This document shows positions 1-30,281 of a stretch of DNA of 64,000 nt, one piece after another (position 1 is the first letter of the stretch; each line of letters starts with the position of its first letter). Source of the DNA: Sphaerochaeta associata (lineage in GTDB: Bacteria > Spirochaetota > Spirochaetia > Sphaerochaetales > Sphaerochaetaceae). Location of the stretch: the NCBI RefSeq assembly GCF_022869165.1, contig NZ_CP094929.1, positions 1,674,001-1,738,000 on the forward strand. The letters are read 5' to 3'. The notes beneath the pieces are model-generated. The model worked only from the letters and a program-made list of their open reading frames with translations, did not search any database and was not told the DNA's origin. The translations under genes were made by a program, and so were the position numbers.

Positions 1-27
1 TTTGGGCTTATTATTCTCTTCCGTCAT
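1..27 (-). CDS. infB: Translation initiation factor IF-2, first nine codons only
   Basis: Only the start lies in the window. An ATG at 27-25 opens a frame beginning MTEENNKPK, 19 nt after the nusA stop, with a Shine-Dalgarno-like AGAGGA upstream. The identity is inferred from the conserved rimP-nusA-infB order, since nine residues cannot identify a protein. A hydrophilic, charged N-terminus fits IF-2. Confidence 0.6.
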
Positions 28-20837: not shown

Positions 20838-22001
20838 TTACGAGATTACCAAGGCCAAACGGAGCAGGATTTCGTCAAGTACCATAAATCCATATTCTGT
20901 CAATACAAAGAGATCTTTTGCATCGTTGAACCAAGAGGAATCGAGGGCGGAAATTACTGGTAAAAAAAGTGTATCGAAATCTTTGCAATACCGTGCCTGA
21001 AATACCTGCTTGTCAATGCCCGTATTGGTTCGCAGTGCCATCATCAGGTACTCCTCCATTTGTTGGTTTGAATCAACAATCTCTTCCTCGTACCCGGTGA
21101 AGAGGGGTGAAGATGCATAATCGCGCAAATCCTGTACTTGGGAATAGTGGCGTGATACGGTTCCTTCCCTGATCGTTGAGGCTGCGCTGCTGCCAAGTCC
21201 AAGGTAATCATCCAGTTTCCAATACACCATATTATGTCTGCTCTTCTTCTCGTTGCGGCAGAAGTTTGAAACTTCGTAGTGGTCGAAGTGCAGACGACCG
21301 AGCTCTGCCCAAATCCCTGATAAAAAGTTCTGCTGACCGTCCTCATCCAAGACTGTTGTTGTACCGAGGCCGACCTGCTCGGCAAGCTCTGTTCCCTCTT
21401 CCACCGTAAGGCAATAGAGGCTGATGTGATCGGCCTCGCTGAGTGTGAGAACTTCCTTTAGGTCGGAGATTGCATCGTCGACGGTTTGCCCTGGAAGGCA
21501 AACCATCAGATCAAAGGAAAGTTCAATGCCATAGGCTTCATGCGCTTTCTGTGCAAGATTGATGCCCCTAAGGTTATCACATCGTCTGGCATTACGACCC
21601 AACCGATTCAGTGTAGCATCGTCCATGCTTTGGATGCCCATGCTCAGTCTGGTAACCAAACCTTCTGAAAATACATCGAAGAACGCTTCAGAAAAAGTTT
21701 CGGGATTCATCTCTACGGTGACTTCATCACTCAGACCGGCTTTAGCGGCTACAAGCAGTCTTCGTAATTGCTCGGCCGAAAGTGAGCCTGGATTGCCGCC
21801 ACCGATGAAAATTGTGGCAAAACGTTCCACTCTGGAAGCGACTGCAAGAATCTCCTGTTCAAGTCGATCCACATAGGCGTTTAGAAATGCAGTATTTTCA
21901 TTGATTGGTTCTGAATAGAAGGCACAATAACTGCAACAGGTGGTACAGAACGGGATGTGCAGATAGAGTGACAGGTCTCCATCGGAGGGAAAGCTGAGCA
22001 C
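20838..22001 (-). CDS. hemW: Radical SAM heme chaperone HemW
   Basis: HemW resembles oxygen-independent coproporphyrinogen oxidase but acts as a heme chaperone. The 387-residue protein has the radical SAM CX3CX2C cluster motif (HIPFCTTCCSYC near residue 15-26; the extra Cys is within the CX3C spacer) and 'FIGGGNPGSL'. It also has HNMVYW near 265, the HNxxYW pattern that marks HemW rather than HemN. The start is GTG, sharing one base with the lepB stop (TAGTG), so it is co-translated with lepB. No heme biosynthesis genes are in the window. Confidence 0.9.
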   Translation of the reverse strand: MLSFPSDGDLSLYLHIPFCTTCCSYCAFYSEPINENTAFLNAYVDRLEQEILAVASRVERFATIFIGGGNPGSLSAEQLRRLLVAAKAGLSDEVTVEMNPETFSEAFFDVFSEGLVTRLSMGIQSMDDATLNRLGRNARRCDNLRGINLAQKAHEAYGIELSFDLMVCLPGQTVDDAISDLKEVLTLSEADHISLYCLTVEEGTELAEQVGLGTTTVLDEDGQQNFLSGIWAELGRLHFDHYEVSNFCRNEKKSRHNMVYWKLDDYLGLGSSAASTIREGTVSRHYSQVQDLRDYASSPLFTGYEEEIVDSNQQMEEYLMMALRTNTGIDKQVFQARYCKDFDTLFLPVISALDSSWFNDAKDLFVLTEYGFMVLDEILLRLALVIS

Positions 22002-23008
22002 TATTTGTTCCCCATGTACCTGATTCTACTGAGAGGCCAAAAGAGAAATCTCACGCTGCCGTTGATTTTCTTTTGGGAGACGGGACCGAAGTATCTGCCG
22101 TCGCGACTGTTGTCCCTATTGTCGCCGAGCGGCAATACAGAACCTTGCGGAATATAGATGCCTCTTTTCATGGAGACACTAGCACTTCTTGCACTGCTGT
22201 CTGAAGGGTCGAAGAGATGTTTGCTCCGGTTCTTCGCCATTTCAAAGGCATACATATCATCGGGATAGTTGTCGTTTTGGACCAGCGCATAATTGCTCTT
22301 CAAATAAGAAGGTACACTGTTCATGTCCACACCCTTTTCTTGATAACCGAACAAAGAACCCCATGCCTTGATGCCGTTGTACAGATTGGCATCGATGCTG
22401 CGGTGAGGGCCGTCGACCAAGGAGAGTGATGTCCGAAAACTTTGGTCATCGATATAGTCGGAGAACCCGGCGCGCTTGATCTCAATATTGCCGTCGTTGA
22501 AACGGACATGTTCCAATCCCATCCCTATTGCTCGTTTCACATACAGTCGTTCGGCGATGCTGCCGTCCTCGTTTCGGTCGATGTTTACCAAAGAAAAGGT
22601 CCCCATGTAGATGATTTGCGAGAGGATGTCAAAAAAGGGTCCTTTGGATTTGTACTCGGGGTTGTAAAAGGTGATGATGTCATCGCGGTTTACTTGTCTG
22701 TTCGCCGATAGGATTTTCGGTCCGCTTGGATAGACTTCAATGCCATAGATGGTCTTGCTTACAAACACACGGTCGCCGACATTGAGCGTTCCGTCCATGG
22801 ATGGCGTAGGGATGACAAAGAGTTGGAAAATGTATTGGTTGATCAGCAACACTGCAAATACGGCGAAAACGAGAGCATCAGCCCAACCTTTTACTTCACC
22901 GATGAAGGTCCGTTTGGGCTTGTTTGCAACTTCATAGGCTTTCAAGGCTTTCCTATGAGTGAGAAACCGTATGGTATTTCGCTCGATAAAACTCAACAAT
23001 TGTTCCAT
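22001..23008 (-). CDS. lepB: Signal peptidase I
   Basis: Membrane-bound type I signal peptidase that removes signal peptides of exported proteins. The 335-residue protein has one N-terminal membrane segment, the catalytic serine in 'TPSMDGTL', the catalytic lysine in 'YVKRAIGM' and box E 'GDNRDNSRDGRYFG'. The first ATG (23008) is used; a TTG 36 nt upstream would lie over the promoter. There is no Shine-Dalgarno before this ATG, and the predicted transcription start is within about one base of it, so the message looks leaderless. The long insertion between the Ser and Lys motifs is typical of larger members. Confidence 0.93.
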   Translation of the reverse strand: MEQLLSFIERNTIRFLTHRKALKAYEVANKPKRTFIGEVKGWADALVFAVFAVLLINQYIFQLFVIPTPSMDGTLNVGDRVFVSKTIYGIEVYPSGPKILSANRQVNRDDIITFYNPEYKSKGPFFDILSQIIYMGTFSLVNIDRNEDGSIAERLYVKRAIGMGLEHVRFNDGNIEIKRAGFSDYIDDQSFRTSLSLVDGPHRSIDANLYNGIKAWGSLFGYQEKGVDMNSVPSYLKSNYALVQNDNYPDDMYAFEMAKNRSKHLFDPSDSSARSASVSMKRGIYIPQGSVLPLGDNRDNSRDGRYFGPVSQKKINGSVRFLFWPLSRIRYMGNK

Positions 23009-23015
23009 AGCAAGC

Positions 23016-23044
23016 ACGCTATCACAATAGGTCTGAGTTGACAA
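23016..23044 (-). promoter_or_regulatory. lepB-hemW promoter, apparently leaderless
   Basis: On the minus strand, TTGTCA (23044-23039), a 17-nt spacer and TAGCGT (23021-23016). Seven nt separate the -10 from the lepB ATG, so transcription should begin at or next to the start codon. The -35 overlaps, on the opposite strand, the -35 of the divergent promoter. Confidence 0.55.
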
Positions 23045-23066
23045 GCCAAGGGCGGACCGCTACCTT
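23038..23066 (+). promoter_or_regulatory. Promoter of the SUMF1-domain gene and smpB, apparently leaderless
   Basis: TTGACA (23038-23043), a 17-nt spacer and TACCTT (23061-23066). Seven nt separate the -10 from the ATG at 23074, and there is no Shine-Dalgarno. The -35 shares five bases with the lepB -35 on the other strand. Confidence 0.5.
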
Positions 23067-23073
23067 ACTATGT

Positions 23074-24525
23074 ATGAAAAGACGTATCGTTCTTCCTGAT
23101 GTAGAAGAGGTGAAGCTGCCAGTTCTTTTTTCGATGAGACCCGGCCTCTATCTCCTTATTCTCTACACCATCTGCATCCTTGCTGTTCTTTTTTGTATTG
23201 CGTACCTCCCTGGTATTCTCAAGGGTGGTCGGTACGTCACCTTCACCGCCCCACTCTCCGAGAGCGGTGTAGTCCTCGATGGAACCTATCTGGGTGCTGC
23301 AGACAACCAATATTTCGTACGCAGCGGGGAGCATGAGGTTACCTACATGAAGGGAGGTGTTGCCTACGCTTCCCATACGCTTGATGTCGACCACCCGGTC
23401 TTCTTGACCTGGCTCTTTCATCGTACCAAGCAGGTAGGTGTTCCGGCTTTACAATTGGATGACGACCAAAAGAAACAGATCATCTCCTATGATCTTGAAC
23501 AGATCCAGACTGCCGGCGCCATTCTCTCGTACGACGCGGTTACCCGCTACGAACCGGTGTACTCCAATTTGGCCGCAGACCTGAAGGCCTTGGATGTCCA
23601 CCAAGACACGGCACAACAGGCACTCGAGCTTGCTCTTTTATATAGTTCCAATCAGACCATGCTTGAAGAAGCCAAAGAGGCGCTTGAATCATCTCAGATA
23701 AGCCGGACTTCCTTCATGCAGGAAATCCTCGTCTCGGCAGAAAGCCTATTTACAACAGGTACTTCATCAGTCGGAATGTCCTTTACAACCCCCACGATAC
23801 GCAAACAAGAAACATCCCTCAACGCCGGTGACTTCGTGCTTCCAGGGTACGTGTATCCTCAGACGAGTTTTGTAATGGGACGCTCCACAGAACATACGTA
23901 TCCGGCAATCAATGAGGCAGGTGTACAGATGACCACCCCTGCTTTTGCACTATCTGCTTATGAGGTCAACCAATATCAATGGGCTCTTTTTTTGGAAGAA
24001 AATCCGATGTGGGCGAAGGGCAATCTTTCCTCGCTTATAGAACAAGGCTTGGTCGATGAAGCATATTTGGCCGGCATTTCACCCTCAACTATTTTTGTGA
24101 CCAATAGACCCATCCATAATGTAAGTTACTATGCCGCCCAAGCTTTTTGCGCATGGCTGAGTGAGAAAACCGGAAAAACCGTTTTCCTCCCCTCCGAGGG
24201 CATGTGGACGCTTGCTGCAGCAAGTCATGACAATTTGAAGTTCGATGCCTCACTTTCCCCTATTCCATCACAGCTTAAGGAGCCGGTTGCTCTACTTGGT
24301 GGTGTTTGGGAACTGACGCAAACCACGCATATTCCGTTGGCAAGGATTACGGATTACCAGAAAGCTCATGCTTTGCATCGGAGTTTCGGTCTTCCCCCGC
24401 AGCCGATCGTGAAAGGTGGAAGTTACCTCAATGATGCGAAGAGCATCTCATCCAATACCGTTGGAGTTGTCGATCCCGATGCATGCGGAGACCTCATCGG
24501 TTTCCGTGTTGCCTGGTATGAATAA
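23074..24525 (+). CDS. Membrane-anchored protein with C-terminal SUMF1/FGE-like domain
   Basis: A 483-residue protein with one membrane helix near residues 26-47. A beta-rich extracytoplasmic segment (about 50-125, PEGA-like in feel), a helical middle and a C-terminal formylglycine-generating-enzyme-type (SUMF1) domain from about 270 follow. Recognisable pieces are 'LSAYEVNQYQWALFL', 'NVSYYAAQAFCAWLSE', 'GGVWELTQ' and the closing 'KGGSYLNDA...IGFRVAWYE'. I do not see the paired catalytic cysteines of true FGE, so an enzymatic role is doubtful; many bacterial SUMF1 domains are carbohydrate- or partner-binding. Its stop directly abuts the smpB start. Function unknown. Confidence 0.75.
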   Translation: MKRRIVLPDVEEVKLPVLFSMRPGLYLLILYTICILAVLFCIAYLPGILKGGRYVTFTAPLSESGVVLDGTYLGAADNQYFVRSGEHEVTYMKGGVAYASHTLDVDHPVFLTWLFHRTKQVGVPALQLDDDQKKQIISYDLEQIQTAGAILSYDAVTRYEPVYSNLAADLKALDVHQDTAQQALELALLYSSNQTMLEEAKEALESSQISRTSFMQEILVSAESLFTTGTSSVGMSFTTPTIRKQETSLNAGDFVLPGYVYPQTSFVMGRSTEHTYPAINEAGVQMTTPAFALSAYEVNQYQWALFLEENPMWAKGNLSSLIEQGLVDEAYLAGISPSTIFVTNRPIHNVSYYAAQAFCAWLSEKTGKTVFLPSEGMWTLAAASHDNLKFDASLSPIPSQLKEPVALLGGVWELTQTTHIPLARITDYQKAHALHRSFGLPPQPIVKGGSYLNDAKSISSNTVGVVDPDACGDLIGFRVAWYE

Positions 24526-24996
24526 ATGAAACAAGATAAGAACACATTCAAGCCGCTTCAGAAGAACAAGAAGGCCTACTTCAATTATGAAGTCATAGAA
24601 GATTTGGAATGCGGCATTGCTTTGGTGGGTACTGAAGTGAAATCGTTGCGTGAAGGCCGTTTTAGTTTTGCCGACAGTTATGTAACAGTCACCGACCGGA
24701 CGCTGACTCTGGTAGGACTTACCATACAACCCTACACACATGGGAACATCCATAACCATGACCCTAACAGGAACAGAAGACTGCTTGCCCACAAGAGTGA
24801 GATCAAGAGGCTCAAGCGCAAGGTAATAGAAAAAGGCTTTACCCTCGTCCCTACTTCCATCTATCTTCGAGGCAACTTGGTGAAAGTGCAAGTATCCTTG
24901 TGCCGTGGTAAACAATTGCATGACAAACGTGCCGCAACCAAGGAACGTGATTTGAACAGGGATATGCGCAGGGAAGTCAAGCAGCTACAGTACTAA
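24526..24996 (+). CDS. smpB: SsrA-binding protein SmpB
   Basis: SmpB carries tmRNA to stalled ribosomes for trans-translation. The 156-residue protein matches the family in full: 'NKKAYFNYEVIEDLECGIAL', 'GTEVKSLREGR', 'DSYV', a central 'HDPNRNRRLLAHK' and a basic tail (HDKRAATKERDLNRD). Its ATG directly follows the previous stop codon, so it depends on upstream translation. Its RNA partner ssrA is about 5 kb away at 29907-30281. A rho-independent terminator follows. Confidence 0.97.
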   Translation: MKQDKNTFKPLQKNKKAYFNYEVIEDLECGIALVGTEVKSLREGRFSFADSYVTVTDRTLTLVGLTIQPYTHGNIHNHDPNRNRRLLAHKSEIKRLKRKVIEKGFTLVPTSIYLRGNLVKVQVSLCRGKQLHDKRAATKERDLNRDMRREVKQLQY

Positions 24997-25021: not shown

Positions 25022-25054
25022 AACACCAAGGAAGCAATTTCTTGGTGTTTTTTT
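25022..25054 (+). terminator. Rho-independent terminator of smpB
   Basis: AACACCAAG and CTTGGTGTT form a perfect 9-bp stem with a 10-nt loop, followed by a run of Ts. Confidence 0.9.
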
Positions 25055-25113
25055 CTGTCCAAATGTAAGAAAAAATTTTCTAATGTTTATAATAGAAAAA
25101 ATTATAAGAATCA

Positions 25114-25363
25114 ATACTGCTGATAAGGTGATAGATTGAATTTATAAATTACATAATGTATAGATATGTCATAAATAACTAGTAGGAATGTATAAATTTA
25201 TGTATATGTATTAATATGCAAGATTATAGAATATATCTTATATACCATCCAGTATTATATATATGTTTTTAAGCACAAGAAATATTATATTAAGGATTTT
25301 TTAATATTTTATAGTTAAATAAAATCCAATAATCAAATATATATACTGCTAATTTGGTAGATT
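25114..25363 (+). repeat. Spaced direct repeat ATACTGCT...GGT...AGATT
   Basis: Two related copies lie in the AT-rich segment: 25114-25137 (ATACTGCT, GATAAGGT, GATAGATT) and 25343-25363 (ATACTGCT, AATTTGGT, AGATT). They share the first eight bases, GGT and AGATT, with a 3-bp length difference. Their start points are 229 bp apart in the same orientation. Their relative GC content stands out locally. They could be recombinase arm-type sites. Confidence 0.5.
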
Positions 25364-25446
25364 ATGTTATATAAAAAAAATGGATATTACCTACAATTTA
25401 TATGCATATACATTATATATAATATAAATATATTTTTATACATAAC

Positions 25447-25481
25447 TATACATACTTACTCTATATAAGTAAGTATGTATA
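25447..25481. repeat. Perfect 14-bp inverted repeat upstream of the integrase
   Basis: The left arm (TATACATACTTACT, 25447-25460) and right arm (AGTAAGTATGTATA, 25468-25481) are exact reverse complements around a 7-nt centre. This is the layout of a tyrosine-recombinase core site (two inverted arms with a 6-8-nt crossover) or of a dimeric regulator's operator. It ends 137 bp before the integrase ATG. No U-tract follows on either strand, so it is not an obvious terminator. Confidence 0.75.
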
Positions 25482-25618
25482 AGATTAATCTCGACACAGA
25501 ATAAGTTTTAGTCTACTATATTATATAGATATAAATATTTTTAATGTTTCTAATAGTATTCAAAAATTTGATACGATTGAACAATAAGTTGAACAAATAG
25601 TCCAAATGGAGATACACA

Positions 25619-26902
25619 ATGGCGAGCCCTGCACCCTACACGCTTTGTAGAATATATCGAGGTGAAAGAGTCTATTATTATGCACTTTTTCGTGATCCAA
25701 CAACCGGGAAACGCACGAATAAGAAAAGCGTTGAGACGCTGCGCAAGGCTCTTGGGATTATTGAGACAGCCCCAATCAAGAGAAGGGATGAAGCTATTCG
25801 TATCTGCCAAAAGGCTTTGGAACAAGGATTGATCTTCGAAAAGAAACAGGAACGAACACTTCTCTCCTACCTACAGGACTTTTATACCTGGGAAGAGAGT
25901 GAGTATGTGAAGCGTAGAAATACTTTATCACCTGGCAGTATCTCGATCGATTACATAGGAACACGGAAAAACCTCCTGGATAACCATGTGTTTCCTTTGC
26001 TTGACAAGAATCTGTTACTCTCTAAAGTAACAGTAGGAATCCTTGAACAATTGCAGCTTCAATTGGTTGAACAAGGTGTTTTACATCATGCAACGATCAA
26101 CATATGCATGACAGCTGTTTCAACCGCACTGCGGGAAGCACAACGAAAAGGCTACATCCCATCTTCCACTTCTCTCTTCATTGCAGGCTTGCCGTGCATT
26201 CATACGCCCAGGGGAATTCTTAGCGAGCGGGAACTTGCTCTCTTCATGCAGTATGCAAAAGAAAAGAGTGAAAAACGAATATATCTGGCTTGTTTGGTAG
26301 CTCTTCTGACTGGAATGCGTTCAGGGGAACTGAGAGCACTCAGGTATGATGCTATTGGATGTGAGATGATTACCATTGACCAAGCCTATGCAGACAGGGC
26401 GGGAATAAAAGCACCGAAAGGGAAAAAGACGCGTTATGTCCCCTGTCCTGAGTTCCTGTGCACCGCTTTAAAGGAGTTGGCATTGGAAAATCCATTCGTT
26501 ACCATGCCGTCATTGGTATTCTGGAGCAAAAGAAATGGTTCTGTGGTATCGAGCCACTACTTCAGCGAACGATTCACCCAGGAACTTGTACGTTCGTCCC
26601 TATTCACAAAATCTGCATTGGCGGAAAGAAACATTAGCTTTCATAGCCTGCGACACATGGCTAATACCCTACTCCGGGGATCGGTCGATGAACATGTACT
26701 GCGTATGACCATCGGGCACAGCAGTCAGCAACTGAGTGATCTCTATACGCACTTAAGTCAGCGCGGCTTGAAAAGTGTCGCCCTTGCACAGCAGAACAAT
26801 ATATTGCCATTGCTGGGGCAAGGGTTCGCATTATCACCAGAACAAGTGGATGAACAGGAACAAGAGGACAAAGAGTATATTGACGATGGTGAAGAAGCCT
26901 AG
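25619..26902 (+). CDS. Tyrosine recombinase/phage-type integrase
   Basis: A 427-residue site-specific recombinase. It has an N-terminal AP2-like arm-binding segment (first 50 residues, 'YYYALFRDPTTGKRTNKKS'), a helical core-binding domain (about 75-190) and a complete catalytic domain. The catalytic residues are Arg in 'GMRSGEL', Lys in 'PKGKKTRY', His-x-x-Arg in 'FHSLRHMA', His in 'IGHSS' and the nucleophilic Tyr in 'SDLYTH'. It is larger than XerC/D and has an arm domain, so it is an integrative-element integrase. No excisionase, cargo or second att site is evident. The last 23 codons, an acidic tail, lie antisense to the end of the neighbouring transporter gene. GGAG lies upstream of the ATG. 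Confidence 0.93.
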   Translation: MASPAPYTLCRIYRGERVYYYALFRDPTTGKRTNKKSVETLRKALGIIETAPIKRRDEAIRICQKALEQGLIFEKKQERTLLSYLQDFYTWEESEYVKRRNTLSPGSISIDYIGTRKNLLDNHVFPLLDKNLLLSKVTVGILEQLQLQLVEQGVLHHATINICMTAVSTALREAQRKGYIPSSTSLFIAGLPCIHTPRGILSERELALFMQYAKEKSEKRIYLACLVALLTGMRSGELRALRYDAIGCEMITIDQAYADRAGIKAPKGKKTRYVPCPEFLCTALKELALENPFVTMPSLVFWSKRNGSVVSSHYFSERFTQELVRSSLFTKSALAERNISFHSLRHMANTLLRGSVDEHVLRMTIGHSSQQLSDLYTHLSQRGLKSVALAQQNNILPLLGQGFALSPEQVDEQEQEDKEYIDDGEEA

Positions 26903-29898: not shown

Positions 29899-29906
29899 CG
29901 GTGTTT

Positions 29907-30281
29907 TGGAGGTGGGGGGATTCGAACCCCCGTCCTAACGTGCCACCCAGGGACGTCTACAAGCTTAGCCTGTGATCAAATGTTCCAGAGGACGTTGGGT
30001 TCACCGGCAAGACGTCCATCCTCTGTATCCTACTTTAGTGTCCCCTCTCTCCATAGGAACTAGAGCGGGTAAGCCCTTGCTTTTACAGGGAACCGATACT
30101 TAAGAGCGGCAGTATTCGGACCTGTACGTCATCGTGCTGTTAAGCAGCGAAGGCGTATTCTGCGTCGAAGGAGACTTCGTCTTCTTTTTTGGCAGTTAAA
30201 TGTTTTTGCTAGTTTAAGGAGTTGGCGCTCCGCTTGCAGCCACTGGCCTGATCTTCCGCCAGTCGAAACCGAAACACCCCC
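29907..30281 (-). ncRNA. ssrA: Transfer-messenger RNA (tmRNA)
   Basis: tmRNA rescues stalled ribosomes with SmpB. The 5' end GGGGGUG pairs with the 3' CACCUCC to form the acceptor stem. The diagnostic 'GGUUUCGAC' follows the 5' stem, and the 3' T-arm reads GGGGGUUCGAAUCCCCC. The end is ...CCUCCA, so CCA is not encoded. The best tag frame starts at GCC (30193-30191) and encodes A-K-K-E-D-E-V-S-F-D-A-E-Y-A-F-A-A before TAA (30142-30140). Its SFD...YA.AA pattern fits spirochaete tags; the resume codon is inferred. The mature length is about 375 nt. Confidence 0.95.

Follow-up and report, generated by a model that had tools for sequence, protein, structure and literature searches.

A single -35 element very probably serves two back-to-back promoters of leaderless type between lepB and a SUMF1-domain gene in spirochaetes

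How are two divergent genes transcribed and translated when a gap of only 65 nt lies between their start codons? The question is raised by a locus of Sphaerochaeta associata within the 64-kb stretch of DNA analysed here, which we call the window. On the minus strand, lepB (22001-23008) encodes a signal peptidase I of 335 aa (PF10502, E = 6e-29; TIGR02227 above its cut-off). On the plus strand, positions 23074-24525 encode a membrane protein of 483 aa, which combines an N-terminal hydrophobic stretch, seen in its sequence, with a SUMF1/FGE-like C-terminal domain (PF03781, E = 1.7e-16). The sequence between the ATG at 23074 (+) and the ATG at 23008 (-) very probably holds two back-to-back promoters built on one -35, from which two essentially leaderless messages would be made.

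The initial annotation had described this arrangement, and every element that it names was recovered from the sequence at the stated position. The -35 box of the SUMF1-domain gene, TTGACA (23038-23043, +), is a perfect match to the consensus, and that of lepB, TTGTCA (23039-23044, -), has a mismatch at position 4. The two boxes overlap by five base pairs (23039-23043), and T23038 and A23044 are the bases that each belong to one -35 and lie outside the other. A spacer of 17 bp leads in each direction to a -10 box, TACCTT for the SUMF1-domain gene (23061-23066, +) and TAGCGT for lepB (23016-23021, -), both assigned by spacing and conservation and both matching TATAAT at only three of six positions (T1, A2 and T6). 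Directly upstream of the lepB -10, the sequence TGTGA (23022-23026, -) provides an extended -10 of the TGn type. The layout of a sigma-70-type promoter (a TTGACA-like -35, a TAnnnT -10 and a spacer of 16-18 bp) is thus present in both directions. Each -10 ends 7 nt before its ATG (intervals 23067-23073, +, and 23009-23015, -), which places the predicted 5' ends at or within a few nucleotides of 23074 and 23008, respectively. As the annotation had also claimed, both ATGs lack a Shine-Dalgarno-like tetramer within usable range, despite an intact anti-Shine-Dalgarno sequence in the 16S rRNA (three copies in the genome).

Within the genus, the ATG-to-ATG gap measures 63-67 nt in all 24 loci in which both starts were found, a set that includes near duplicates and two loci, L006 and L031, from the same contig. 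The conserved blocks in these 24 loci are TTGACAA, TACCTT and the lepB -10 together with its TGn extension. For the family, 97 loci were entered, from which three without the N-terminus of the SUMF1-domain protein were removed. TTGACA is found in the expected region upstream of the SUMF1-domain gene in 91 of the remaining 94; in the other three (L098, L150 and L160), which were left out, it is absent from the range or the sequence is too short. A plus-strand promoter, defined as TTGACA, 16-18 bp, TAnnnT and 4-13 nt to an in-frame start, is present in 82/94 loci, and 72/94 also carry the mirror promoter with an in-frame lepB start. In all 72 of these two-way loci the lepB -35 is TTGTCA, though the search did not constrain it. 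The plus-strand test is failed by 12 loci and the two-way test by 22. About ten of the failures, all from the g16 group, retain the -35 but lack a TAnnnT -10. In this part of the genus g16 (L095, L096, L136, L145, L146, L148, L149, L151, L152 and L154) the SUMF1-side -10 is replaced by a GACTAT-like hexamer at unchanged spacing (17, by eye), while TTGTTGACAAG stays; this hexamer is possibly a lineage-specific -10 preference.

Spacing was measured after the removal of identical sequences, which left 84 loci, 81 of them with a divergent lepB, and with no selection for a -10. TAnnnT stands at spacer 17 in 63/81 loci on the plus strand and in 68/81 on the minus strand, and spacer 18 adds 8 and 9, respectively; at no other spacer from 0 to 39 does the count exceed 11 (plus) or 16 (minus) of 81. 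Information content is high at the -35, at T1, A2 and T6 of both -10 boxes and at base 7 of TTGACAA, and stays below 0.5 bit in most spacer columns. This comparison shows strong selection, within the family, on the element itself, on its symmetry and spacing and on how far it stands from the start codons; in other families the same holds for as long as the gene pair persists.

The distance from -10 to start was examined in 65 loci, the subset of the 81 unique ones with both promoters and both in-frame starts. It is 6-10 nt on the SUMF1 side in 61/65 (range 4-11, most often 6) and 6-8 nt on the lepB side in 64/65 (11 in one locus, most often 7). Shine-Dalgarno-like tetramers (GGAG, GAGG or AGGA) precede the start at 2/65 SUMF1-domain genes and at no lepB, versus 206 of the 371 genes that were called in a 464-kb portion of this genome; a control window further upstream holds such a tetramer in 37 of the 371. 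Both genes therefore have the form expected of leaderless genes, a -10 about 5-9 nt before the start and no Shine-Dalgarno sequence, and the case for leaderless messages from lepB and its neighbour is good; we infer that their 5' ends lie at the two ATGs. A different outcome, in which the promoters are correct and the messages carry short leaders of ~3-10 nt, or in which one predicted ATG is not the start, is unlikely. The 4-11 nt range on the plus strand would allow a leader of several nucleotides in some species, and in this species an out-of-frame ATG occurs at 23070, 4 nt upstream of the SUMF1-domain start. The commonest distances on either side, however, put the +1 on or beside the A of the start codon, and in most relatives the protein alignments begin at the ATGs corresponding to 23074 and 23008.

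The genome as a whole is dominated by Shine-Dalgarno sequences, which in a crude gene calling peak ~4-9 nt before starts. A TAnnnT ending 6 nt before the start occurs in 16/371 genes versus 2-14 at other offsets, in a call set whose start caller placed the SUMF1-domain start at 23134 instead of 23074. When a -35 is also required, there are 16 matches at 6-8 nt versus between 1 and 6 in each of seven control groups of offsets, and a profile of TTGACA-TAnnnT-N0..24-ATG gives only a roughly twofold excess at 6-8 nt (computed by hand from the counts). The stricter pattern TTGACA-16..18-TAnnnT-6..8-ATG has 19 sites in the genome versus 2 for the reversed pattern; 13 of the 19, including the lepB/SUMF1 locus, head ORFs of at least 100 aa, and the lepB/SUMF1 locus is the only one of the 19 with a mirror promoter and start. 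Base 7 alone is not specific to two-way promoters, since TTGACAA is present at 8 of these sites, including the lepB/SUMF1 locus. The other 12 of these 13 ORFs, which likewise start 6-8 nt after such a promoter (within L032-L050), have N-termini that we take to resemble PadR, MarR, BirA, endonuclease IV and U32 peptidase proteins. Judged by these patterns, only a small minority of the genes in this Shine-Dalgarno genome are leaderless. This is in keeping with an extract of PMC3160421, in which leaderless genes are reported in 6 of 18 Spirochaetes genomes, at 3.9% on average.

Of 294 genomes from the phylum, 80 yielded homologues of the SUMF1-domain protein and 178 yielded LepB relatives with E-values of 1e-30 or lower. 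Outside the family, 22 of 45 loci carry the two-way element with a common TTGACAA (21 found by script and L191 by eye, as the script's LepB pattern missed it), and they belong to ten families (f2, f4, f6, f7, f8, f9, f12, f14, f17 and f18). In most two-way loci of other families the SUMF1-side -10 is TATAAT or TATACT, with TATAAT the commonest. The SUMF1-side start lies 6-9 nt from the -10 in all 22, and the lepB-side start 5-10 nt from it in 17; the LepB proteins of seven of these loci are 30-38% identical to that of the window. In L172, L173, L183, L192 and L202, lepB has a leader of 27-38 nt with a Shine-Dalgarno-like sequence and the common -35 is kept, so that a leaderless lepB is not obligatory to the arrangement. 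Other lineages have taken the element apart. In f16 (L199 and L207) and f10 (L203 and L213) the promoters stand separately, each with its own TTGACA. In seven f8 loci (L188, L190 and L193-L197) and in L206 no SUMF1-domain gene was found beside lepB and the box is absent. In the eight f5 loci, presumably Borrelia-like by their gene content, the common box is gone, and four of them have TTGACA-18-TATACT-7-ATG on the SUMF1 side and a lepB with GAGG before its start. In f3, which we take to be Treponema-like, no match to the SUMF1-domain protein was listed at the threshold used, and the LepB-like protein is different and longer. Together, the f16, f10, f8, f5 and g16 cases indicate that the common box goes with the gene pair, and that the common -35 and a leaderless lepB are separable.

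The overlap itself could still be incidental if the SUMF1-domain gene alone used the -35 and lepB worked from its extended -10 (TGnTAnnnT). The mismatch of TTGTCA at position 4 and the TGTGA that precedes the lepB -10 in this genus both speak for such a promoter. Across the family, however, the TGn extension is far from universal (T kept in 45 and G in 48 of 81 unique loci), whereas the base that follows TTGACA and is required by the lepB promoter alone is A in 80/81, and the lepB-side spacer is 17 or 18 in 77/81. The separated promoters of f16 argue in the same direction: in L199 and L207 the copy at a distance of 17 bp from the lepB -10 still reads TTGACAAG, while the copy that serves the other gene alone is TTGACAC or TTGACAG. 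We therefore regard an independence of lepB from the -35 as very unlikely.

A palindromic and nearly invariant sequence between two divergent genes could also be the operator of a regulator that controls both, with the true promoters elsewhere. We consider this highly improbable, because the palindrome is itself a -35 consensus match with TAnnnT 17-18 bp off on both sides, the plus-strand -10 becomes TATAAT in other families, and the one-sided TTGACA-TAnnnT-ATG layout heads the 12 other ORFs of this genome. Moreover, any further promoter would have to lie within the coding regions, as the 65-bp gap has no space for one.

A single genome would be insufficient as proof, since the -10 boxes match at half of their positions and a fixed-consensus promoter scan lists neither the lepB nor the SUMF1-side promoter (22 promoters found versus 24.0, sd 4.7, in shuffles). 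The scan passed over both because of those weak -10 boxes, and the omission was not counted against the promoters. TAnnnT-17-TTGACAA-17-TAnnnT has one exact match in the window and four in the 3.55-Mb genome, among which only the lepB/SUMF1 locus has leaderless-type starts on both sides. When up to two mismatches are allowed, the genome yields 126 matches versus 78 for the reversed control, which indicates that the loose matches are mostly due to chance. It should be noted that the genome holds a second divergent pair (L216, G000:C1:2723882-2723932) in which a common TTGACAA has TAnnnT 17 bp off on both sides. Its genes are a presumed endonuclease IV, named by its N-terminal sequence, and a 491-aa ORF; one start is of the leaderless type and the other has a 25-nt leader with AGAGGAG. 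A functionless chance match at the lepB/SUMF1 locus, for which the weak -10 boxes and the silent scan might speak, is refuted by the fixed spacing conserved throughout the family and across families. Conservation lifts the element far beyond chance, and the reading of the initial annotation, two overlapping promoters that start leaderless messages, emerges strongly supported as to the promoters, by -35/-10 pairs and 17-18 bp spacers kept across families, and well supported as to the messages, by the short -10-to-start distances kept in this family and ten others.

The plus-strand promoter probably serves more than the SUMF1-domain gene. Directly behind that gene lies smpB (24526-24996, +; PF01668, E = 4.5e-55), and a terminator-like stem-loop with a T-run follows at 25022-25055 (+; seen in the sequence as inverted repeat I4). 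The two genes are predicted to share one transcript, and smpB lies on the same strand immediately 3' of the SUMF1-domain gene in 29/30 loci tested. Since smpB stands directly behind and the hairpin comes only after it, ribosome rescue probably also depends on the SUMF1-side promoter. At the junction TAAATG (24523-24528) the smpB start begins at the base after the SUMF1-domain stop, and smpB has no Shine-Dalgarno sequence of its own; together these suggest that smpB is translated by reinitiation. SmpB is the protein partner of tmRNA, whose gene, ssrA (29904-30281, -; tag AKKEDEVSFDAEYAFAA), lies ~5 kb from smpB on the opposite strand. Between the two, at 25060-26902, the DNA is first very rich in AT and then carries a gene for a tyrosine recombinase; this region may be a mobile element close to the tmRNA gene.

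Divergent overlapping promoters, bidirectional promoters with a common -10 and leaderless genes are all known already. The pLS20 conjugation switch reportedly uses overlapping divergent promoters. There, too, two promoters compete for the same DNA; at the lepB/SUMF1 locus, by contrast, the conserved part is the core promoter, with no evidence of a regulator or of DNA looping. In the bidirectional promoters described by Warman, Grainger and colleagues, likewise, one short symmetrical element drives divergent transcription with one polymerase orientation at a time (PMC12825309, in extract). These have a common -10 and divergent starts mostly 18 bp apart, with 10 and 23 also frequent, whereas at the lepB/SUMF1 locus the -35 is common, ~65 bp separate the predicted starts and neither message is predicted to have a leader. 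With its separate -10 boxes, the locus falls outside the definition given in that extract (a symmetrical common -10 and starts mostly 10-23 bp apart), under which separate divergent promoters do not count as bidirectional. Known leaderless genes, as extracts of PMC3160421 and PMC5243855 describe them, likewise have a -10 a few nucleotides before the ATG and no Shine-Dalgarno sequence, and L. interrogans has ~440 mRNAs with a 5' UTR under 10 nt (PMC5243855, in extract). The difference here is that two such genes stand back to back on one -35, an arrangement conserved over many families. A -35, rather than a -10, common to two leaderless genes and kept over many families was not found in the literature searched, which also yielded no account of the lepB/SUMF1 promoter and no paper that treats both Sphaerochaeta and leaderless genes; coverage of that search was partial, and such absences carry little weight.

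On this basis, we propose that the 65-bp gap consists of two complete housekeeping (sigma-70 type) promoters on a palindromic 7-bp -35, TTG-A-CAA. Region 4 of sigma would contact either TTGACA or, on the opposite strand, TTGTCA, and the polymerase would open whichever TAnnnT box stands 17 bp beyond. With a start site ~6-8 nt beyond the -10, each message would begin on the ATG or no more than a few bases from it. Both lepB and the SUMF1-domain gene, the latter together with smpB, would then be produced from essentially leaderless messages. Because one -35 is common to both promoters, simultaneous occupancy by two polymerases should be sterically excluded. The mutually exclusive firing that the initial annotation predicted would be a possible regulatory consequence. 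At five E. coli bidirectional promoters, according to the same extract of PMC12825309, basal activity was too low for polymerases to compete, and competition appeared once one side was activated.

We speculate, with considerable doubt, that the common -35 is an ancient ratio-setting device in this class of spirochaetes, in which one sigma contact is split between signal peptidase and the SUMF1-domain/smpB message, so that raising one lowers the other. If so, translation of both messages, being leaderless, would also follow the supply of 70S ribosomes, and protein export and ribosome rescue would be linked to the state of the ribosome. The two directions are separable experimentally, since T23038 and A23044 each belong to one -35 only. 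A promoter layout rarely outlives the divergence of its proteins to about a third identity, and this one is kept while the genes stay neighbours. It thus offers a naturally occurring case in which to study the effect of polymerase competition at a common -35, and to ask if there is a reason why both messages have stayed leaderless.
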